The position numbers and the translations under genes were made by a program. DNA of 34,815 nucleotides. Origin: Anaerolineae bacterium (GTDB lineage: Bacteria > Chloroflexota > Anaerolineae > S016-19). A model generated the notes under the pieces. It was not told the origin of the DNA. It did no database searches and was given only the letters and a program-made list of their open reading frames with translations. This document shows, in pieces, positions 1-21,768 of this stretch (its first letter is position 1; every line of letters starts with the position of its first letter). The stretch is taken from contig JALWAP010000102.1 of NCBI GenBank assembly GCA_027016315.1, positions 1 through 34,815 of the forward strand, given 5' to 3'.

Positions 1-355
1 GCTTGAAGGGTCCCCAGCCTTTCGTTGGCTCGGAGCCCAGGAAGAAATTGCGGGAGATGCTCATCAGCGGGATCATGGCCAGGTTCTGGTACACCGTGGC
101 GATGCCGTACGCGCGGGCGTCCCTGGGTGAGTTGAACTCGACCGGCTTCCCTTCAACGAAAATCTGGCCTTCGTCCGGCTTGTGGACGCCGGAAAGGATC
201 TTGATCAGCGTGGACTTCCCGGCGCCGTTGTCTCCCAGGAGACACATCACCTCGCCGGGGTAAACGCTTATGGACACGTCCTTGAGGGCAACCACGTTCC
301 CGAAATACTTGGAGACGTTTCTCGCTTCAATAAGAGGTACTCTGTTCACACTCAT
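1..355 (-). CDS. Sugar ABC transporter ATP-binding protein, N-terminal part (cut by window edge)
   Basis: Energy-coupling ATPase of a sugar/polyol importer of the RbsA/MglA type, acting on the inner face of the membrane. About 118 codons are visible. The Walker A motif GDNGAGKST lies near residue 40 and the Q-loop VYQNLAMIP near residue 95; the signature motif, Walker B and any second ATPase half lie beyond position 1. The ATG at 355-353 overlaps the TGA of the permease gene (ATGA), so the two are translationally coupled. The start [19 protein letters not shown] is typical of the family. The substrate is inferred from the neighbours (myo-inositol-like polyol), not from this protein. Confidence 0.9.
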
Positions 356-1395
356 CTCTTCATCTCCGCAGCTTTTTCCCTGACGTAGTTGTTCACCAGA
401 ACAGCCACGACCAGCATGACCCCAAGGAAAACCTGGAACCAATCGGCATCGACTCCGGCGAACACGATGCCCTGCCTGACCATCCCGAAGATCAGCGCTC
501 CTAACACAGTTCCGGCTGCCGAGCCGTAACCTCCTGTCAGGAGTGTGCCGCCGATGACCGCAGCGATGATGGCAAAGAACTCCAGCCCCGTGCCCCTGAG
601 CACGTCAGACCCGGTGAACGAAATCGCCTGTATCACCGATAGAAGCCAGGCAGACCCGGCGGTCAGCATGAAGAGCGTTATCTTGACCCTGTGCACCGGC
701 ACGCCGACCATCCTCGAGGCAGTTGCGTCGCCGCCCACGCCGAAGATCCAGTTGCCGAACTGCGTCCGGTTGAGCAGCCATGTGGCAGCAGCCGTCACCA
801 CTATCCACCACAGAATCGAAATCGGGAACCTCGTCCCTTTGACCATCACGTCGCTGGCGAAAATCAGCTTGCCCAGGTGGTATCCATGGACTTTGGCGAG
901 CCCTCCAAGCTGCGTTCGGCCCGTTGCGACCCTGGTCAGCCCGATGGTGGCGCCGCGGACGATGTAAAGCGTGCCCAAAGTGATGATGAATGAGGAAAGC
1001 CCGGTCTTCACCACCAGGTAGCCGTTCGCAAAGCCGATGGCGAGCGCCACGAGCAGCGCCACCGCCATTGCAGCCCATATGTTCCAGCCGAATTTCACCG
1101 GGAGGATCGTGACGATCATGCCGGACGCCCCGACGATTGACCCGACGGAGAGGTCGAATTCACCGCCGATCATCAGGAGCGATATCGGCACGGCGACGAT
1201 GCCAAGCTCAGCGGCCACGTCCAGGTAAGTCGAGGTGCCTTTCAGGCTGAGGAATCCCTGCTTCCCGGCCACGATCGCGAAGAACACCCAGACAACGACG
1301 AGTCCCCCGGCGGCACCCAACTCCGGGCGGTTCAACAGTCGCCGCAGGAAGCTGGTTTCCAGCAATCTTTCTTCTTGAGAGAACTTCGTTTCCAT
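352..1395 (-). CDS. Sugar/polyol ABC transporter permease (RbsC/FrcC type)
   Basis: Transmembrane channel subunit of a carbohydrate ABC importer of the BPD_transp_2 family, 347 residues, with many hydrophobic segments. The family-type stretch [17 protein letters not shown] and the C-terminal glycine-rich [15 protein letters not shown] are visible. I place the start at the ATG at 1395, because AGGGAG sits 9 bases upstream; a GTG at 1416 would add 7 residues but would place that ribosome site inside the gene. The gene lies 64 bases after the binding-protein gene and overlaps the ATPase start by 4 bases. It is part of the same leftward operon as the IolM- and IolO-like enzymes, so myo-inositol or a related polyol is the likely cargo (inference). 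Confidence 0.93.
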
Positions 1396-1459: not shown

Positions 1460-3463
1460 TTACCTGGTGCCTTTCTTCGTCAATTCCATGACTTTGTCGA
1501 CGTTGTCCTTGGTGACGAAACCAGGGCCGGTCATGATGACTTTGTTGGTGACCATGTGACCGGTCGTCGCGTACAGCTTCAGGAAGACGATCGGCAGGTA
1601 GCCCTGCAGGTACTGCTGCTGATCGATGGCGAAGAGCATGTTGCCGTCCTTGATGGCCTGCAGAACTTCAGGCGAGAGGTCGAAGGTAGCCAGCTTGACC
1701 TTGCCGATATAGCCTTCTTCCTTCAGCGCCTGGATGGTGGGGATTGCACCAGCAGGCCCCAGCGTCAGGATGCTGTCGATGGAAGGATCGGACTTCAGCT
1801 TGGCGATCACACGCTGCTTCGTCTCGGTCGGGTTGGAGACGTCCACCGCCAGCACGTCTACCTTGCCGCCAGCTTTCTTCATCGCATCGGCGAAGCCTTT
1901 GCATCGCTGATCCAGCGCCGTGTTGCCGACCTCGTGGTTCACGCACAAGCCATGCTTGGCTCCTGCAGCAGCCAGCTTCTCGCCCCCGCCGTAGCCAGCT
2001 TCGTACTCCGTCTGGCCGACATGGGTCATCACGCCGAGCTTTGGCGCTGCTTCGTAGCCGGAGTTGATGGAGATCACCGGGATGCCAGCCTCGACAGCGG
2101 CTTTGATCGACTTGCCGAGGGCGTCTGGATCGGGGATGGACACTACAAGGCCATCGGGCTTGGAGGCGACCGCAGCATCGATCAGGTGGGACATGGCAAC
2201 CATGTCGAAGGTGTCCGGGGCCTGATATTCGGCGGTCACTTTCATGTCCTTGGCTGCAGCATCGACGCCCCTCTTGACCACCGACCAGAATGGATCGGCT
2301 GCCTGCCCGTGGGTCACCACGACGAACCGAAGCCCGCTCTTCTTGAAGCCTTTGGCCTCTTTCGCAAGAGATTCCTTGGTGACGAAGCCAGGGCCGGTCA
2401 TGATGACTTTGTTGGCGACCGTGTTGCCGTTTGTGTTGTAGAGGTAGAGCAGAACGATCGGCAGATAGCCCTGCAGGTACTGCTGCTGATCGATGGCGAA
2501 GAGCATCTCGCCGTTCTTGATGGCGTCCTTGATCTCAGGCGAAACGTCGAAGGTAGCCATCTTGATCTTGCCGATGTAGCCTTCCTCCTTCAGCGCCTGC
2601 AGCGTAGGAATGGCTCCTGCAGGCCCCAGCGTCAGGATGCTGTCGATAGAAGGATCGGACTTCAGCTTGGCGATCACACGCTGCTTCGTCTCGGTCGGGT
2701 TGGAGACGTCCACCGCCAGCACGTCCACCTTGCCGCCAGCTTTCTTCATCGCATCGGCGAAGCCCTTGCAGCGTTGATCCAGCGCCGTGTTGCCGACCTC
2801 GTGGTTCACGCACAAGCCATGCTTGGCTCCTGCAGCAGCCAGCTTCTCACCGCCGCCGTAGCCAGCCTCGTACTCCGTCTGGCCGACGTGGGTCATCACG
2901 CCGAGCTTTGGCGCTGCTTCGTAGCCGGAATTGATGGAGATCACCGGAATTCCGGCGGCCACAGCGGCTTTGATCGACTTACCGAGGGCGTCCGGATCCG
3001 GGATGGACACCACAAGGCCATCGGGCTTGGAAGCGACCGCAGCATCGATCAGGTGGGACATGGCGACCATGTCGAAAGTGTCTGGGGCCTGATACTGCGC
3101 CGTGACGCCCAGGTCTTTGGCCGCATCGTCCACCCCTTTCTTCACAACCGACCAGAATGGATCAGCCGCCTGCCCGTGGGTCACCACGACGAACCGAAGC
3201 TTCTTGGCGGCCGGAGCCTTGGTCGGCTTGGGTGCCGGGGTGGCCGTGGGTTTGGGCGGTTTGGTCGGGGCCTTGGTGGGCTTGGGCGCCTTGGTTGGTG
3301 CAGGCGCTTTAGTCGGAGCTGGCGCTTTCGTGGCCGGAGCCTGCGTTGGTGCAGGCGCCTTGGTCGGAGCAGACGTCGGGGTCGCCTTAGGGCCACAAGC
3401 GGCAAGCACCATGGAGACGACGAGCAACAATGCGAACAACGTGTAGTACTTCTTTGACATCAT
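1460..3463 (-). CDS. Lipoprotein sugar-binding protein with two tandem type-1 binding domains
   Basis: Extracellular lipoprotein that captures the substrate for the ABC importer. Residues 1-23 are a lipoprotein signal ending in LAAC (lipidated Cys23). Residues 24-86 are an Ala/Pro/Thr/Lys-rich stalk. Two periplasmic-binding-protein domains of the Peripla_BP_4 type follow at about 88-376 and 377-667, repeating every 289 residues (867 bp). In the central 164 residues the two copies differ at one position, while both flanks are clearly diverged. Usual family members have one domain of roughly 300 residues. AGGAGGG lies just upstream; a second ATG at 3460 is slightly better spaced. Ligand identity is inferred from the operon. 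A long open frame on the opposite strand follows from codon bias. Confidence 0.93.
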
Positions 3464-7706: not shown

Positions 7707-7915
7707 GGGGAGGCTTGGCACGCGCATGGTTCGCATGAAGCACAACGCCAGGACGCAGGGAGGCGAATGATGCAAAACGCTTCTTAATGCTTTGCGTCTT
7801 CGCAACCTTGGCGTCTTAGCGTTGTTGAAGTAGGTGCGCGAGCGGAGAAGAATCCCTTATCAGGGGCCGGATAGCAACTTGACATCTAAAAATAGGAAGA
7901 AATACCCATAGACAA
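7696..7915. repeat. Promoter-bearing duplicated block, copy 2
   Basis: Counterpart of 6542-6760; see there for the shared landmarks. It starts inside the right inverted end of the 7583-7706 element and ends in the -35 region of the promoter at 7909-7937. Confidence 0.8.
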
Positions 7916-9865: not shown

Positions 9866-9895
9866 TTGACACTGATACGCAAATAGCTGTAGAAT
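9866..9895 (+). promoter_or_regulatory. Promoter directed into the cassette array (Pc-like)
   Basis: TTGACA (9866-9871), 18 bases, TAGAAT (9890-9895). It has the same form as the efp promoter (TTGACG-N18-TAGAAT). It points toward the first cassette, about 180 bases ahead of the cassette boundary, as a cassette promoter would. The stem-loop at 9914-9934 lies between them and could attenuate it. Confidence 0.72.
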
Positions 9896-9934: not shown

Positions 9935-10024
9935 TTCGATCAGGGTGAAATCGATACCCCGGAAAGGGGCAAGAGTACACATGAACTTAGGATCAAGTTA
10001 GCTCGGCTTTATTTCGGATCGGTA

Positions 10025-10072
10025 CCGGATAACGCACCGATGGGGGATGTTATCCGGACTCTCTCCGGATAA
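10025..10072. promoter_or_regulatory. Three CCGGATAA half-sites forming two mutually exclusive hairpins
   Basis: CCGGATAAC (10025-10033) pairs with GTTATCCGG (10049-10057) over 9 bp. The same central copy can instead pair with CCGGATAA (10065-10072) over 8 bp with a 7-base loop. It lies 7 bases before the first cassette boundary. It may be an operator, an attenuator, or part of an attI-like site. Confidence 0.6.
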
Positions 10073-10078
10073 GTAATG

Positions 10079-10085
10079 GTTGGGC
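10079..10085 (+). other. First cassette boundary (GTTGGGC core; attI-like side)
   Basis: GTTGGGC is the exact reverse complement of GCCCAAC, which opens attC1 at 11042. The sequence before it (CTCTCCGGATAAGTAATG) does not resemble the attC right arms, so this looks like an attI-type or other non-attC junction. That is inference. Confidence 0.65.
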
Positions 10086-10128
10086 AATCTCTTTTGTTTC
10101 GCGTTTGAGACCAGTAGAAGGAGTAGCG

Positions 10129-11109
10129 ATGGTTGAGGTAAAAGAAAGTGGAAAGAGAATCAGGCAATTTTTTAACGCAGAAGCAAATGCTTTATTGAAC
10201 GCATATTTGCACATTCAAACACTGTTGCCTGCCCAGCACACGGGAGGTTCTTCCCACCATCCTGAGGAAGGCCGTCATATTGAGAGCTTATTGCGTTCTT
10301 TCTTGAATCGCCATCTTCCGCGACAACTGCGGGCATTCTCAGGATTTATCTTGCGACCAGCGACAAAAACGAATCTCCATAACAGAAGGCGATTGAGGGA
10401 AGGAGATTTGCACTCATCTCAGTTAGATATAATTGTATTTGATGTGATAAATTATCCTATATATGAGCATTTTGAAGAATTCGTAATCGTTCCCCCTGAG
10501 GGGGCTATCGCTATAGTTTCTGTGAAAAAGAAATTGTATAGAAGCCACATAAGTCAGGAAATAAAGCAATTAGCATCAGCCGCTGCTTTGTGTGGACATA
10601 CCAAAAGCGGAAAACCAAATGTGTGGGTACGAGGGCCGAGCTTGGTGTTATGGGCGTTCTCGTCAGGCGATCTACCAAAGGCAGATGACGATGTTGTTTC
10701 ATATTTTATGAAAGAGTTAGAAAGTTACGCTAGTTGTCCTTTTGACCAATTGATCAACCAAATTACCATTTTAGATAGACTTACCTTATTTAAAGCGCGC
10801 CCTTCTCCTCCTACAGAAAAGGTAACAACCGCAAAATATGTTTGGGGTAAGCATCCTGTAGATAGCGATAGCATCAACCGTGGCTTGCAAACGCTTTTAA
10901 CTAACATCTTGAGTGTTTTTTATGATGAGACACGTTCAACAAAATCACGGCCAGGATTTACAAGCTTCCCGCCACGGGAATCGCTCTCATCAGCTGGTGA
11001 AATATCTGTTAAGGGTTTGCGAGTGACTCACCCCAAGTTGTGCCCAACCCAGCGTGCAGCGGACACGGCTTCGCCGTGGGGCAACGTTGGCGGTTTGAAG
11101 GCGGAGTAG
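10129..11109 (+). CDS. Cassette 1: DUF6602-like protein, possible PD-(D/E)XK nuclease fold
   Basis: 326 residues. The order E52 (HIESLLRSFL), the SGFI strand, SQLDIIVFD with D100, then EGAIAIVSVKKKL with K133 resembles DUF6602 proteins, which I believe share a restriction-endonuclease-like core. The usual Glu before V-K appears to be Ser131 here, so catalysis is doubtful. I choose the ATG at 10129 because AGAAGGAG lies 5 bases upstream; a TTG at 10105 is the longer alternative. The frame runs through the attC core at 11042, so the last 20 or so residues are encoded by the recombination site. Codon use is more A+T-rich than in the flanking genes, fitting acquisition. A defence role is only suggested. 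Confidence 0.8.
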   Translation: MVEVKESGKRIRQFFNAEANALLNAYLHIQTLLPAQHTGGSSHHPEEGRHIESLLRSFLNRHLPRQLRAFSGFILRPATKTNLHNRRRLREGDLHSSQLDIIVFDVINYPIYEHFEEFVIVPPEGAIAIVSVKKKLYRSHISQEIKQLASAAALCGHTKSGKPNVWVRGPSLVLWAFSSGDLPKADDDVVSYFMKELESYASCPFDQLINQITILDRLTLFKARPSPPTEKVTTAKYVWGKHPVDSDSINRGLQTLLTNILSVFYDETRSTKSRPGFTSFPPRESLSSAGEISVKGLRVTHPKLCPTQRAADTASPWGNVGGLKAE

Positions 11110-11165
11110 CGTCGCCAACAATGCTTCTGGGAAAACACGCCGTGCCGCTGACGCTATCGTTAGCC
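11042..11165 (+). other. attC1 recombination site
   Basis: 124 bp from GCCCAAC to GTTAGCC. The left arm AGCGTGCAGCGGACAC pairs with the right arm GTGCCGCTGACGCT (reverse complement AGCGTCAGCGGCAC), leaving two unpaired extra bases (G and A) on one arm. This matches the extrahelical bases of folded attC sites. The inner part can also pair (GTTGGCG with CGCCAAC). Confidence 0.82.
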
Positions 11166-11190
11166 CAGGAAGCTTTTGGGGGTTAGCACT

Positions 11191-12762
11191 ATGGGAGACC
11201 ATCAAGTTTTTACTTTCGCTAAAAAAATAAAGGGGGATCAGGTCACGTCCAAAACTCTGAGTGATATCCGTGATATCAACAAACTTTACGAGATTGTTGA
11301 TAAATTGGAGCATTTACCCAGAGTGGCAACAGTGCCATTGCAGGATCTGGGATTGCGGAGAAACCCTCGCAAATGGGTAGAAAAGCTATTGTCAGATTAC
11401 CCCCATATCTTAAACTCGGATATGGAGAATCTTCTCTTCGATTTTACGGATAGCATGAGAACAAGAATGAGGGAAGATACCAAATACGTATTAGGTGTAC
11501 TGTTTGAAGATAAGTTACTATTATGCCATAGTATTTATGGAGAAGAGACTGTCACTCCAGAATGGAAAATTATTCCGCGAATGCTCGATGCTGACAATAT
11601 ACTGCGTTTCGTGTGTTTTGAAAAAATACAAGGGGATTACCAAGTGAAGTACTGGGAGAGAGATGCAACAAGTTCTTTTGTAGAATGGCTTGGTCTTCCT
11701 CAAAAGCAGGCTTTTTTGTTTGGGGGACGCTATAGAATGTTAAGCGAAATCGAAGGGGTAGTCGCTGAATTTCAGCTAACTGAGGAAGAGGTAAATGAGT
11801 GGTTGGAAAAGCATCCGGAGATAGAAAAAGGCTATCTCAATCTAAGCACTCCTGTTCAAATGTTGACCATCAAAGAGGTGAGAGTTGCAGGCAAACGATA
11901 TGACGCTGTGGTAGATTTTATTCAAGACTTTCAGGCTGCAAAACATGGTCTTCCTTTTTATCAGAAGAGGTATGCCCAGCTAAAGAAAGAGCAACTTCCT
12001 CTCTTTGTGCGTTTTTATGATGAGAAGACGCAGGTTGTAAGGTGGGAAGGAGAGGACGAAGTTGTGGAACTGTATAAGGAACAGGTTAGTTTTGATATAC
12101 TTTTCGCTGATGATGTAATTGAAATGAGAGGGAGCTACCTTCAAGACGTTACGCGAAGATGTATTAATGGTGAGCCAGTGAAAATAGTACATGTGGGTGA
12201 GAAGTTTAGAATGCATCCGATAAAATTAGGAAGCATAGAAATCTATAACGAAATCCGGAAGCCACAAATTATAGAGTATCTCGCTCATTATTTTGAAGGA
12301 GAGTCCTTGCGAGATAGGAAAATAGCTTTACTGGTCAAATTGCTTTTTCTTGAAGTCTTGGTAAAAGCGAATACTGAAAGTCCGTTGTCCTTTGCTCTTC
12401 GCAGGATTGCGAACAACCTTCGCAAGGAAATATCTTTAGATGGTCGGTTTATGCAAACAGAAGATCATTTTGTAGAATACAAATCGCGAGATTACTTTGC
12501 GGGTCGCGATAGCGAGATAGTGGAGCGTTTGATTGAAGATATCGAGCACAAAGTTAAAGAAACTTCTTATAAGCTTTATCTGATTGGTGTGGAAGATAAT
12601 GGAAGCGTTAAGCCTCTTTCTGCATCTCGACTAAAGAGCGATCGAGTAGAAAGTATTCGAAAAAGAGTCGCTGAGGCGTTGCCCCACTTGAGTTTTGCCT
12701 TTTTCCCCATTGTTGCTGATGGGGAGGGGATCCTTTTACTCACTGTGGAACCAAAGAGGTAG
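11191..12762 (+). CDS. Cassette 2: AlbA/Schlafen-like putative nucleic-acid-binding protein
   Basis: 523 residues. The C-terminal 100 residues look like a divergent AlbA_2 (Schlafen-type) domain: E429-Y-K431 in FVEYKSRDYF, then LYLIGVEDNGSVKPL and a terminal GILLLTVEPKR. The first 400 residues are not recognised; they are charged, without membrane segments, and read like several mixed alpha/beta domains. I use the ATG at 11191, with GGGGGT 7 bases upstream; a TTG at 11176 is possible. The stop codon falls one base before the attC2 core, the usual tight cassette packing. The gene is A+T-rich compared with ligA or manC. Schlafen-type domains occur in regulators and in phage-defence proteins, but the role here is unknown. 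Confidence 0.8.
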   Translation: MGDHQVFTFAKKIKGDQVTSKTLSDIRDINKLYEIVDKLEHLPRVATVPLQDLGLRRNPRKWVEKLLSDYPHILNSDMENLLFDFTDSMRTRMREDTKYVLGVLFEDKLLLCHSIYGEETVTPEWKIIPRMLDADNILRFVCFEKIQGDYQVKYWERDATSSFVEWLGLPQKQAFLFGGRYRMLSEIEGVVAEFQLTEEEVNEWLEKHPEIEKGYLNLSTPVQMLTIKEVRVAGKRYDAVVDFIQDFQAAKHGLPFYQKRYAQLKKEQLPLFVRFYDEKTQVVRWEGEDEVVELYKEQVSFDILFADDVIEMRGSYLQDVTRRCINGEPVKIVHVGEKFRMHPIKLGSIEIYNEIRKPQIIEYLAHYFEGESLRDRKIALLVKLLFLEVLVKANTESPLSFALRRIANNLRKEISLDGRFMQTEDHFVEYKSRDYFAGRDSEIVERLIEDIEHKVKETSYKLYLIGVEDNGSVKPLSASRLKSDRVESIRKRVAEALPHLSFAFFPIVADGEGILLLTVEPKR

Positions 12763-12763
12763 G

Positions 12764-12887
12764 GGCTAACCCTGCGTGCAGCGGACGCCGTCTCACCGTC
12801 GGGCAACGTTGGTGGTTTAAAGGCAGAGTAGCGTCGCCAGCGGTGGTTCTGGACAAACACGCCGTGTCGCGGACGCCCTCGTTGGGC
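12764..12887 (+). other. attC2 recombination site
   Basis: 124 bp from GGCTAAC to GTTGGGC. GGCTAAC is the exact reverse complement of the cassette-2 starting core GTTAGCC at 11159. Left arm CCTGCGTGCAGCGG and right arm GTGTCGCGGACGCCCTC retain the GCGT pairing, while the inner box has diverged. Confidence 0.82.
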
Positions 12888-13019
12888 GACTTGCTTTTGA
12901 AATTGTAGTGCCGCACTTACGCGTTTGGGATAGTCTTGGAGCAGACGCGACTTTGGGATGAACTTGTGCGTTGTGATCGAGTAAGTAGGTTCCCGATATT
13001 ATCCTGGGAAGCGATGGGA

Positions 13020-13571
13020 ATGAGCATAGACAGAGAAACTCTTTTAGTTTTGTATGGGTATGTTCTTGATGAAGAACGTTTTTTCGCTAAAGAGCATCAG
13101 GATCGCGTTTCCTTCTATTCGGGTTTTATTACCACAATCATAGCAGCCATAGTAGTTGGATCTTTGCAAGCTTCAACCTGGTATCATTTCGCCATCTTGT
13201 GTGTGGGGCCGCTGGTTCTGTTTCTTATTGCTCAAAATGCAGTTGAAGGATGCTATCGTTCGTACGTGCGCTTTCTTGAAGCAATTACTTATCGAGCAAA
13301 GATTGAGCAGAACTTAGGCTTGACTCGAGAGCCCTTGAAAAAAGAAGAGGCTAAAAGAGGAGGCGAACCGTATTGGGAAAATGAGCCACTAGTTCCTTCC
13401 CGTCATCTTCTAAATCGGAGAAAATATGCTACCTCAGAAGAATTTATTCGGCGAGCCTCACAAGGTGGTTATCATAGAGTAGTCGTACGATTATTCCGTA
13501 CTGTTCAGGGATTGAGTGTGTTGATGTTTGTTGGGCTTGCGGGAATGGCAGTGTGGCTGGCGTTGCAGTAA
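13020..13571 (+). CDS. Cassette 3: small membrane protein (SLATT-like layout)
   Basis: 183 residues from the chosen ATG. A charged N-terminus (YVLDEERFFAKEHQDR) precedes two adjacent membrane segments (FITTIIAAIVVGSL and FAILCVGPLVLFLIA), then an acidic/basic cytoplasmic stretch of about 90 residues, then a final segment (GLSVLMFVGLAGMAVWLAL). The paired segments followed by a helical cytoplasmic part recall SLATT-type effectors, but this is by layout only. Start choice is uncertain: GGGAAG lies 8 bases before 13020; an ATG at 13014 and a TTG at 12936 (27 codons longer) are alternatives. It lies between attC2 and attC3 and is A+T-rich. Confidence 0.72.
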   Translation: MSIDRETLLVLYGYVLDEERFFAKEHQDRVSFYSGFITTIIAAIVVGSLQASTWYHFAILCVGPLVLFLIAQNAVEGCYRSYVRFLEAITYRAKIEQNLGLTREPLKKEEAKRGGEPYWENEPLVPSRHLLNRRKYATSEEFIRRASQGGYHRVVVRLFRTVQGLSVLMFVGLAGMAVWLALQ

Positions 13572-13593
13572 TTACGTGGTAAGAATAGGGTGT

Positions 13594-13724
13594 GACCAAT
13601 CCTGCGTGCAGCGGCCACGGCTCGCCCAAGAAGAGCCGTTGGGGATGGTTAGGCAAAAAATCCTTTGCCTGCTGTGGTCGTAGACGTGGACAGCGACACC
13701 GTGCCGCTGATGCCATCGTTGGGC
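13594..13724 (+). other. attC3 recombination site
   Basis: 131 bp from GACCAAT (degenerate core, two mismatches to the expected GCCCAAC) to GTTGGGC. Left arm GCGTGCAGCGGCCAC pairs with right arm GTGCCGCTGATGC (reverse complement GCATCAGCGGCAC), with two extra bases on the left arm. Confidence 0.78.
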
Positions 13725-13753
13725 GGGGTCTCGGGGCATGCTAAAACGAAGTC

Positions 13754-14197
13754 ATGAAGATCTATCTGGACGTTTGTGCAATTCAAAGGCCGTTGGATAC
13801 GCCAAGTCATTTGCGTATTGCCATCGAGGCTGAAGCGATTTTGGGCATCCTTGCGCTATGCGAGCGCGGCCAAATAGAAATTGTGTCGTCGGATGCGTTG
13901 GTTTATGAAGTGAGGCGCAATCCTCATCCTGTTCGTCGGGAATACGCTTTGGCTGTGCTGGCCTTGGCTAAAGAGCATCTGGTAATCTCGAAAGATGTGG
14001 AGGATCGAGCAAACTCTCTGGTAGAACGGGAGGGATTCAAGCCCCTGGATGCCTTGCATTTAGCGTTTGCGGAGAAAGGGAAGGTGGAGTATTTTTGCAG
14101 TAGCGATGATAAACTTTTGAAAAGAGCAAGGCGTACAAAGGATTTAGCGGTCAAAGTGGTGACGCCAGTGGAGCTGGCGGAGGAGTTGGAAAGATGA
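13754..14197 (+). CDS. Cassette 4: PIN-domain toxin (VapC-like ribonuclease)
   Basis: 147-residue PIN domain, a probable metal-dependent endoribonuclease. The acidic positions expected of the fold are present: D6 in KIYLDVCAIQRPLD, E52 in LVYEVRRN, D99 in KPLDALHLAFAE and D118/D119 in FCSSDDKLL. It lies 30 bases after the attC3 core and overlaps the following small gene by ATGA. Toxin first, partner second, is an order found in some PIN modules. The ribosome site is weak (AACGAAG). Toxin-antitoxin cassettes are frequent in chromosomal integrons, where they are thought to stabilise the array. Confidence 0.87.
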   Translation: MKIYLDVCAIQRPLDTPSHLRIAIEAEAILGILALCERGQIEIVSSDALVYEVRRNPHPVRREYALAVLALAKEHLVISKDVEDRANSLVEREGFKPLDALHLAFAEKGKVEYFCSSDDKLLKRARRTKDLAVKVVTPVELAEELER

Positions 14198-14415
14198 GTG
14201 TTTACGCTGAACCATTAGTAGAGATCAATCGTAAAGCCTTTTTGGTGCTTTATCGGGAGTTAGGGGTTGTGGATGCAGTGCGCTTTTTGCGGCAGTTTAC
14301 TACGGGATTCGGAGAATACGCCGAAGAGCGCGAGGCTTTGTTCGGTGGAAAGAGCTTGGCGGAAATCGTGGATGAAATAAAGCGAGAAAGCGATAGCGGC
14401 AGCGAAAGTCGATGA
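14194..14415 (+). CDS. Cassette 4: small partner of the PIN toxin, likely antitoxin
   Basis: 73 residues, overlapping the toxin stop by four bases (ATGA). The sequence contains FLVLYRELGVVDAVRFLRQF and EEREALFGGKSLAEIVDEI, a helical pattern that I associate with small proteins encoded next to PIN genes. No classic AbrB, MetJ/Arc or Phd domain is evident. The antitoxin role is inferred from size, charge and coupling. The ORF ends 28 bases before the attC4 core. Confidence 0.78.
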   Translation: MSVYAEPLVEINRKAFLVLYRELGVVDAVRFLRQFTTGFGEYAEEREALFGGKSLAEIVDEIKRESDSGSESR

Positions 14416-14443
14416 GAAGCGCCTAAGATGCATGGCATACCCC

Positions 14444-14546
14444 TCCCAGCCCCGCGTGCAAAGGACATGGCTTCATCCTGGGGCGCCGGTGGTGGTTTTG
14501 AGGCGAGGGAGCGTCGCCAGCCGTGCCGCTAGTACAATCGTTAGCT
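14444..14546 (+). other. attC4 recombination site (degenerate)
   Basis: 103 bp from TCCCAGC (two mismatches to the expected GCCCAAC) to GTTAGCT. The right arm GTGCCGCTAGTACAATC still resembles the others; the left arm CCGCGTGCAAAGGAC has lost part of its pairing. GCGTCGCCAGCCGTG inside matches the internal part of attC1 and attC2. Confidence 0.7.
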
Positions 14547-14589
14547 CCGTGAGGTCCGTGCACTACATTGAAAACTGTGGTGAGCGAAA

Positions 14590-15213
14590 GTGTCGAAAGT
14601 TAAATACCAGGCTGCAATGTTCGACCTGTTGACAGCTCTCCTGGATTCCTGGTCCCTTTGGAGCAAGGTGGCAGGATCTGAGCAGGCTGGCCTAAACTGG
14701 AGAATTGCGTACCTGAAGTTGACTTATCAGGCAGGGCAATACCGCCCCTATGAAGAGATCATCAGGGAAGCCGCGGAAGATGCAGGGATACCTGCTGAAC
14801 TGGCAGACGAACTCATACGGCGTTGGAATGAGGTCGAACCGTGGCCTGAAACGAAACGAGTTTTACAGGAACTGATCGAGAGAGTACCGGTTGCGGTGGT
14901 GACCAATTCGTCGATTGCGTTAGCCGAGGTTGCGGTTTCACGCATCGGAATACCGATCCCTATAGTCATAACGGCGGAAGAGGCTGGATACTACAAGCCA
15001 GATCCGCGGCCATACCGAATGGCTTTGGAAAGGCTTCGGTGTAAGGCGGAGCACGTTCTCTATGTTGCAGGCTCTCCCTCAGATATTCCCGGAGCATCGG
15101 GGGTTGGCATGCCTGTCTTCTGGCACAATCGAATGAATCTGAAGCCTTTGCCTTCGAGTGCTAAGCCCAGGTACGTATCAGACACTTTATTGCCATTACT
15201 CGATATCGTGTAG
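14590..15213 (+). CDS. Cassette 5: HAD-superfamily hydrolase-like protein
   Basis: 207 residues. The probable nucleophile D12 is in AMFDLLTALLDSW; motif II is VVTNSS; the motif III lysine is in YYKPDPRPYRMAL; the motif IV region is VAGSPSDIPGASGVGM. The second Asp of the DxD phosphatase motif is Leu14, so this is closer to the 2-haloacid-dehalogenase layout, and phosphatase activity is uncertain. The end WHNR resembles small-cap HAD proteins. The GTG start at 14590 lies 44 bases after the attC4 core. Base composition is closer to the chromosome than that of cassettes 1-3. Confidence 0.82.
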   Translation: MSKVKYQAAMFDLLTALLDSWSLWSKVAGSEQAGLNWRIAYLKLTYQAGQYRPYEEIIREAAEDAGIPAELADELIRRWNEVEPWPETKRVLQELIERVPVAVVTNSSIALAEVAVSRIGIPIPIVITAEEAGYYKPDPRPYRMALERLRCKAEHVLYVAGSPSDIPGASGVGMPVFWHNRMNLKPLPSSAKPRYVSDTLLPLLDIV

Positions 15214-15248
15214 GAGGCGTGGAAAGGCTCTGTGAGGAAGGGAGAACG

Positions 15249-15395
15249 ATGATACGAAAGAAATACAGCGAAGGCCAGGTAGCCCAGATTTTGGAGGCAG
15301 TGTAATCTGGAGTGCCTGTGACATAGCTATCTCGGACGTGTGGATTCAGCCAGAGTGCATTTTACCGATGGAGAGCGAAGTACAGCGGGGTGGAT
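15249..15395 (+). pseudogene. Relic of an IS3-type transposase orfA (HTH_Tnp_1)
   Basis: Reading from the ATG, the frame gives MIRKKYSEGQVAQILEAV, a TAA, SGVPVT, a TAG, then LSRTCGFSQSAFYRWRAKYS. Without the two stops this is the helix-turn-helix start of an IS3-family OrfA (compare the family pattern SGVPV..LCRKYGIS..TFYRWRAKYGG). No orfB and no clear inverted ends are visible. It sits in cassette 5 and appears to have replaced the left half of attC5. Confidence 0.72.
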
Positions 15396-15420
15396 GGTGG
15401 ATGTGGTGGATGTGCAGTCA

Positions 15421-15444
15421 CTGTCGCTGACGCCCTCGTTGGGG
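15421..15444 (+). other. attC5 right half-site
   Basis: CTGTCGCTGACGCCCTC followed by GTTGGGG. The 17-mer aligns with the right arms at 11142, 12864, 13701 and 14523. A left half in the expected form is missing; AGCTATC at 15325 is one mismatch from the expected AGCTAAC, but it lies inside the IS3 relic and may be chance. A further core, GTTAGGT, occurs at 15448-15454. Confidence 0.6.
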
Positions 15445-15461
15445 CTGGTTAGGTGCATCGT

Positions 15462-16118
15462 ATGCAAGGACTTTACAGCGTTTCACCTGCTTTGCTAGCG
15501 GACGTGAAGAGCATTGGAGAGAAAGTCCGTGGGGAGCTTCAGGGCGGGGTGTCTTTGGTGGAATACATCACCTTACCCGAAGCGGGGCAACACGTTGTGT
15601 TGCGTTTTGAAGTCCGGAAGGAAATCTCCAGCCTGGACGAAATAGATGCGCTCGAGAACAGGCTGAGCCGGTTGGCGGGCGAATGGTTCTGGGTCGTGCT
15701 CGTGGGCGAGACATACAGCCGGGTGAATCCGCAGTTGCCTTTGGCAGAGATGCCGATACGGCTGGAGAAATTCGCACAAGTCGTCATGCACGAACCTGTG
15801 CCGCTTGCGTCGACGCCGTTTGCTTCAGAGATCGGGAAAGATGGGCAAACCATCCGTGCGCACATCCCGCTGTCCCCTGGGGATTGGGTCTGGGAAGTGG
15901 AAGTTCCTCTGTCGGCGGGGGAAGTTTTGCCGATTATCCGGGTAGTCTCGGGAGAAGAGCGTGGCGAGTGGGTGGTGACCATCGGTGAACGAGAGTTCGC
16001 GGTGGAGTACGTCCCTCACAGCGCCGGTTACGAGGGCCTCGTGAAGGCCTATCCGCTGGCACGCAAAGCGGGAATGGCGCTCATTCGGTATGTTTTTGAA
16101 CACACCGGCGACGTGTGA
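15462..16118 (+). CDS. Unrecognised soluble protein
   Basis: 218 residues with no membrane segment or signal; the composition suggests alternating beta strands (HVVLRFEVRKEI, WFWVVLVGETYSRV, WVWEVEVPLSAGEVLPIIRVVSGEERGEWVVTIG) and a helical end. I recognise no family. The ATG at 15462 has AGGTG 6 bases upstream; a GTG at 15453 is the alternative. It starts directly after the last half attC site, so it is either a sixth cassette lacking its attC or the first chromosomal gene at the right edge. Its higher G+C favours the second. Confidence 0.72.
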   Translation: MQGLYSVSPALLADVKSIGEKVRGELQGGVSLVEYITLPEAGQHVVLRFEVRKEISSLDEIDALENRLSRLAGEWFWVVLVGETYSRVNPQLPLAEMPIRLEKFAQVVMHEPVPLASTPFASEIGKDGQTIRAHIPLSPGDWVWEVEVPLSAGEVLPIIRVVSGEERGEWVVTIGEREFAVEYVPHSAGYEGLVKAYPLARKAGMALIRYVFEHTGDV

Positions 16119-17973: not shown

Positions 17974-18852
17974 ATGTTTTTTGGGGGAGGCGACAAAGTT
18001 GCCATCGAGATCGATCCTGGTCAGGGGCCATTTTATCCCGGCAGTCCGTTGAACGTCTCCATCACCTTGCGATCGAAGAAAAAAGTCAAAGTAAGCGAGG
18101 TCAGGGCGGTGTTGCTCTTTCACGAGCAGTATCGGTACAAGGCCGTGGAGGAGGACGATGACGGCGATCGACAGACCAGGGTCTACACAGCGCACAAGGA
18201 TTGGGAGGTTCACAAGGACTTGTTGATGGGCGGGGAGACCATTCCGGGAGGCTTCGAACAGACCTACCAGTTGGATTGGAAAATCCCGGAAGACGCTCAG
18301 CCCCCGTATTCTGGAAAGGTGATCCAGGCCAAGTGGCTGATAAAGGTCACGCTCGATCGCAAACTGCGCAAGGATATCAACAAAGAGATCGAGCTTCCTA
18401 TCATCGTGCCGCCGCCGGGAACGCACGGCGGAGCGGGAGAATACGGCCATGCCAGCCATTCCGACAAAGCCGATATGCAATTGTGGCTCCCGAGGGTGGA
18501 GTGGGTGGAAGGCGAGACGATAGAAGGCAAGCTGAAGATCTACGCACACGACAACATATCTTGCAACCATGTACGCATCGAGCTGACCCGGAAGGAAGAA
18601 GTTTTCCGCGAAAACGGCAACGTTTTTACCGTCACCGAGTTCAAGGAACGCATTTCGGGCGGTGTGAAGCTCAGGTCCGGAGAGACCAGCGAGATACCTT
18701 TCTCCATTGCCATCCCCAAGAAAGGATGCCCAACCCTTGATACGCCCGTCGGACGGGTGACCTGGACGCTCAAGGGGATCATGAGCAGGCGGCTACGGAA
18801 GGACTTCACGGTTACCCAGGAAATCTTCGTTTACAACGGCTCAAAGGCATGA
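17974..18852 (+). CDS. Arrestin-fold protein (Spo0M/arrestin-like)
   Basis: 292 residues without signal or membrane segments. Two beta-sandwich halves are visible: about 5-150 (VAIEIDPGQGPFYPGS, VSEVRAVLLFHEQYRYK, IQAKWLIKVTLDR) and about 165-292 (WVEGETIEGKLKIYA, HVRIELTRKEEVF, FSIAIPKKGCPTLD, VTWTLKGI). This is the layout of arrestin N- and C-domains, as in bacterial Spo0M. It is probably an adaptor or scaffold rather than an enzyme. The start is firm: AAGGAGGT 4 bases before the ATG. It is followed by the bidirectional terminator at 18905. Confidence 0.8.
   Translation: MFFGGGDKVAIEIDPGQGPFYPGSPLNVSITLRSKKKVKVSEVRAVLLFHEQYRYKAVEEDDDGDRQTRVYTAHKDWEVHKDLLMGGETIPGGFEQTYQLDWKIPEDAQPPYSGKVIQAKWLIKVTLDRKLRKDINKEIELPIIVPPPGTHGGAGEYGHASHSDKADMQLWLPRVEWVEGETIEGKLKIYAHDNISCNHVRIELTRKEEVFRENGNVFTVTEFKERISGGVKLRSGETSEIPFSIAIPKKGCPTLDTPVGRVTWTLKGIMSRRLRKDFTVTQEIFVYNGSKA

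Positions 18853-19662: not shown

Positions 19663-21768
<2,106 letters not shown>

Follow-up and report, generated by a model that had tools for sequence, protein, structure and literature searches.

The window analysed here is a stretch of 34,815 nucleotides, contig C102 of an Anaerolineae MAG (G000; 2.45 Mb in 306 contigs, 92% complete, 5.9% contamination). It carries an array of five gene cassettes that is preceded by an attI-like leader with a promoter-like sequence (Table 1). Six core sites, all on the + strand, mark the cassette boundaries, one at each (10079, 11159, 12881, 13718, 14540 and 15438). The initial annotation had described six regularly placed GTTRRRY cores. The cores are indeed present at the boundaries, but only three fit the motif strictly (GTTGGGC in each case), the remainder reading GTTAGCC, GTTAGCT and GTTGGGG, and the core-to-core spacing of ~0.8-1.7 kb is irregular. 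Two further properties proposed there were borne out: the cargo ORFs lie on the + strand without exception, and in cassettes 1 and 2 the start core is the exact reverse complement of the R'' box that opens the cassette's own attC (7 of 7 positions each). This correspondence falls to 5 of 7 positions in cassette 3 and is lost in cassette 4.

Table 1. Features of the cassette array, and group II introns found in attC sites of the same genus (positions refer to the window unless another locus is named).
Feature	Position	Strand	Description
Pc-like promoter	9866..9895	+	TTGACA-18-TAGAAT, pointing into the array; 11/12 consensus positions; consensus match only
attI-like site	10015..10085	+	insertion point G10079^T10080; homology to other leaders
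Cassette 1	10080..11159	+	ORF 10129-11109; DUF6602, PD-(D/E)xK / NucC-like nuclease-related
attC1	11042-11165	+	R2 50.6 bits, E 1e-11; R'' GCCCAAC, L'' GCGTGCAGCGG, L' CCGCTGACGC, R' GTTAGCC
Cassette 2	11160..12881	+	ORF 11191-12762, 523 aa, no known family
attC2	12764-12887	+	R2 21.7 bits, E 5e-4; R'' GGCTAAC, R' GTTGGGC; L box partly decayed
Cassette 3	12882..13718	+	ORF 12936-13571, 211 aa, predicted membrane protein
attC3	13594-13724	+	R2 18.9 bits, E 2.5e-3; R'' GACCAAT, R' GTTGGGC
Cassette 4	13719..14540	+	PIN-domain ORF 13754-14197 and overlapping 73-aa ORF 14194-14415
attC4	14443-14546	+	degenerate: short, R'' decayed; R2 7.5 bits
Cassette 5	14541..15438	+	ORF 14590-15213, HAD-family hydrolase
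attC5 right arm	15423-15444	+	2 mismatches to right-arm pattern; 0.01 matches expected window-wide
Group II intron	L110 (G032:C335) 50-456	-	RF02012 and domains V-VI, RF00029
Group II intron	L099 2486-2594	+	RF02012
Group II intron	L098 1261-1369	-	RF02012
Group II intron	L098 2330-2438	-	RF02012
Group II intron	L036 (G000:C143) 7714-7821	+	RF02012

The cassette 1 protein matched Pfam PF20247 (E 2e-14) and the PADLOC families PD_DExK (1e-15) and NucC (2e-5), and the final 22 codons of its ORF lie inside attC1. The cassette 2 protein gave no Pfam match above cut-off and none in NCBIfam or PADLOC. For cassette 3, a weak match to 8xMP remained below cut-off, and the translation contains hydrophobic stretches. 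In cassette 4, the PIN domain was recognised by PF01850 (E 8e-7), and its two ORFs are probably a toxin-antitoxin pair. The cassette 5 protein matched HAD_2 (E 4e-15), with HAD type II as the best NCBIfam match, below its cut-off. Sedentary integrons are known for defence and toxin-antitoxin cargo, which the cargo of this array fits. A search at E 1e-10 through the rest of the 396-genome class sample yielded no relative of cassettes 1 and 2, and a scan of the genome contigs gave no relative of the cassette 1 protein. The cassette 4 pair recurs with 82% DNA identity in another array (contig C417 of G032), where it stands behind a DUF4160/DUF2442 cassette and has neighbours other than those in the window. 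G032 is 97% complete and is the sole other member of the genus among the genomes examined. The array thus combines a single cassette orientation with variable content, and the fixed gene order in relatives that the initial annotation had named as counter-evidence was not encountered.

To describe the attC sites, we trained a covariance model, R2, on 18 attC sites that lie close to integrase genes in other families of the class; it contains no sequence from the window. It is distinct from the model of IntegronFinder. A motif-and-duplex finder served well enough to collect native sites but did not recover attC1 and attC3 at full length, and the covariance model was therefore used instead. R2 was run with filters off. 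The E-values given by the tool are rough, but the gap in bit scores is clear: attC1, attC2 and attC3 were matched, and the next scores were 8.4 bits for attC1 read on the reverse strand, 7.9 bits for an unrelated place and that of attC4. A lack of model hits at sites 1-3, which the initial annotation had named as refuting evidence, was therefore not observed. Outside the array, no R2 score in the window exceeded 8 bits. R2 was thus passed by three of the five attC sites, with modest scores for attC2 and attC3. attC2 is 83% identical to attC1, attC4 can be aligned along its length with attC1-3, and attC5 was not found by R2 as a whole site, its left arm being unrecognisable. The right-arm pattern GCCGCTGACGCNATCGTTRGS had four matches in the window, all at array boundaries, compared with 0.01 expected from shuffling, and the only match to the full-length left-arm pattern was attC1. 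In attC1, comparison of L'' with L' leaves a single G of the left arm unpaired, and the initial annotation had likewise noted extra left-arm bases at this site; the expected hairpin is formed by its bottom strand. Sites 1-3 thus have the R''-L''...L'-R' structure of attC by R2, with the unpaired left-arm base seen in attC1. In a genus-wide attC alignment the stem is kept, and at 6 of the 17 pairs both sides have changed in a compensatory manner. Paired cells make up 85.8% of the alignment, compared with 18-44% when it is slid; these figures are to be read in light of the alignment having been fitted to the model. A second model, R1, was derived from 12 attCs of class 1 cassettes whose loops had been trimmed. 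It missed the attC sites of the window and returned nothing useful, probably owing to the length of these sites (124-131 bp); R1 thus provided no independent confirmation. Another well-preserved attC lies at a contig end elsewhere in the genome (G000:C139 9708-9832, - strand, 39.8 bits).

These results bear on the possibility that the array is a run of fixed chromosomal genes in an ordinary operon, with GTT cores and hairpins arising by chance. The + strand of the window has 21 GTTRRRY matches, and attC4 and attC5 are weak, as a chance origin would allow. However, this explanation is already refuted by the hits of a model free of window sequence at sites 1-3, and the excess of right-arm matches, the presence of cassette 4 in another array, the unshared cassettes 1 and 2 and the recurrence of the attI-like leader all make it extremely improbable. 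The identification of an integron cassette array in the initial annotation was thereby confirmed.

The first core had been read as an ordinary cassette core. The core is real, but homology of the leader indicates that it is an attI-like insertion point. The window leader shares 79% identity with G032:C110:1381-1447 across 67 bp, and it was also matched at G000:C143 and G032:C335. Counting both genomes, the leader thus has four copies, with a different cassette after each. One extra base near the cut in the C143 leader makes ungapped identity figures too low. The leaders are conserved to the left of G^TT and divergent to its right, and this similarity up to the junction followed by different cassettes is the pattern expected of attI after insertions. 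We therefore refer to the window leader as attI-like, a designation that follows from homology and position only; together, the four-leader homology and the junction pattern point to insertion at G^TT. At the place equivalent to the Pc-like promoter, the C110 and C143 leaders carry TTGACA-17/18-TATTAT or TATTGT (C335 was read by eye). Every leader read has TTGACA-17/18-TANNNT ~160-210 bp upstream.

The array is flanked on both sides by chromosomal genes typical of the genus. The left flanking gene is 63% identical to its homologue in G032, where a different gene follows the orthologue directly and no array is present. On the right, tmRNA and tRNA genes lie between the array and ligA at 19717, which is 79% identical to that of an Anaerolineae MAG and supports the assignment to a Chloroflexota chromosome made from the window alone. 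A 221-aa ORF at 15453-16118 starts 9 bp past the last core and has no family match in Pfam, NCBIfam or PADLOC. When tried as a flank marker, its protein had no relative in 40 related genomes, so that no clean empty site could be demonstrated; the ORF may be a sixth cassette with a decayed attC. Elsewhere in the window, the bacterial protein encoded at 17974-18852 has arrestin N and C domains (E 1e-17), and one - strand ORF (1460-3463) contains two tandem, near-identical copies of a sugar-binding-protein-like domain, which may reflect a fusion, a duplication or an assembly error.

Given this setting, we considered whether another mobile element or a plasmid integron had delivered the array in one piece, so that it did not grow in place. 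Its GC content is 47%, compared with 57-58% in the surroundings, the leader stands away from ileS, and the neighbouring gene at 15453-16118 is absent from the 40 relatives, all of which would be compatible with import. However, the leader and the attC type are native to the genus, and no transposase or other recombinase was identified adjacent to the array (direct repeats and element ends were not systematically screened), which makes block import unlikely.

No remnant of an integrase gene was found in the window. In G000 as a whole, no TIGR02249 match exceeded the cut-off and the best matches were Xer-type recombinases, consistent with the lack of an integrase reported from the window. In G032, a divergent 88-aa ORF lies beside the leader (C110 995-1261, - strand), residues 13-79 of which match TIGR02249 positions 1-67; it also matches NF011946 (E 2e-22). 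The rest of this intI is gone, and the ileS terminator region comes next. Apart from this 5' remnant, G032 gave only partial Xer-like matches far below cut-off. The ileS platform of G000 (C143 26390-26769) comprises the ileS end, the leader and cassettes, and lacks the intI remnant. A T-box leader (L036:2164-2415) lies on this ileS contig as well. Thus the integrase of a complete integron was found in neither genome, G032 retaining only a remnant. At the level of sequence, it is established that cassettes are present and that the examined sequence lacks an integrase, and loss of the integrase in the genus is well supported within the bounds set by incomplete genomes. Under laboratory conditions, losing intI is known to be advantageous: a class 1 integrase imposes a cost while active and becomes inactivated during serial transfer (PMC3510236).

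Alternatively, the genome could have an intact intI that was not assembled or not binned and that still moves the cassettes in trans. The fragmentation and 92% completeness of the G000 MAG leave room for such a gene, intI is present in 98 of 396 class genomes, and both attC1 and the C139 attC are well preserved. Yet the more complete G032 likewise offers no intact gene, the ileS-platform integrase is truncated in one genome and gone in the other, and attC3-5 are decayed. Taken together, this makes a trans-acting integrase quite unlikely.

Some attC sites of the genus contain ORF-less group II introns (Rfam RF02012), which are oriented like the cassettes (Table 1). The shorter copies (L099, L098 and L036) gave no match to domains V-VI. 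Classic IIC-attC introns have the opposite orientation (PMC7923331), unlike those of the genus. With several attI-like platforms per genome, no working integrase and these introns in attCs, one could imagine that cassettes and attCs of the genus now spread without IntI, assisted by introns or through recombination between platforms; we regard this as very improbable.

The array shares features with several known systems. Like other CALINs, it has two or more attC sites separated by less than 4 kb, cassettes that point one way and no intI nearby; its sites are 0.8-1.7 kb apart and intI is absent from window and genome. It differs in retaining a recognisable attI-like leader and promoter-like sequence, which makes it more clearly a beheaded integron. 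With the sedentary superintegrons of the Vibrio type it has in common attC similarity within a genome, toxin-antitoxin cassettes and cassettes of unknown function, and a chromosomal location; in contrast, it is short (5 cassettes), there are several attI-like platforms per genome and both genomes examined have lost the integrase. Class 1 integrons of proteobacterial plasmids show the same order of promoter, attI and cassettes with attC, but their attCs are mostly ~60 bp rather than 124-131 bp, and the array has no integrase and the window no resistance cargo. Compared with the Chloroflexota integrons already described (PMC2426708, PMC9668308), the phylum and the parts are the same, whereas the genus studied here has a truncated intI or none.

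With a probability of roughly 0.9, we conclude that the array is a CALIN, namely the attI-led part of a sedentary chromosomal integron of this Anaerolineae genus that has lost its integrase. The cassettes would have been added singly at G10079^T10080 by IntI acting on folded attC bottom strands, and would now be transcribed from the leader promoter. After loss of IntI, they are likely to have become frozen and to be decaying, as suggested by attC4, attC5 and the R'' of attC3, and they would be movable only by IntI from outside.

The initial annotation had considered such arrays rare in this phylum, which proved incorrect. TIGR02249 matched above cut-off in those 98 of 396 class genomes, compared with none of 14 control genomes, and R2 was positive in 30 of 41 class genomes. 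Several of the intI-bearing genomes have two or more intI. Chloroflexi were listed among integron-bearing divisions as early as 2008 (PMC2426708), and Chloroflexota were again named among integron carriers (PMC9668308). CALINs outnumber complete integrons, and fragmented assemblies can give spurious CALINs (PMC9668308, PMC9024848). The array is therefore a decayed, well-documented example of a kind already known, in a class where integrons are common, and nothing new. Its interest lies in the route of decay of a chromosomal integron outside Proteobacteria, in which the integrase is the first to go and the attI-promoter leader and cassettes remain, a route visible in native sequence at related platforms of two congeneric genomes. 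With integrons in about one quarter of the sampled Anaerolineae genomes, the class represents a large and little-used cassette reservoir that includes probable defence and toxin-antitoxin genes.
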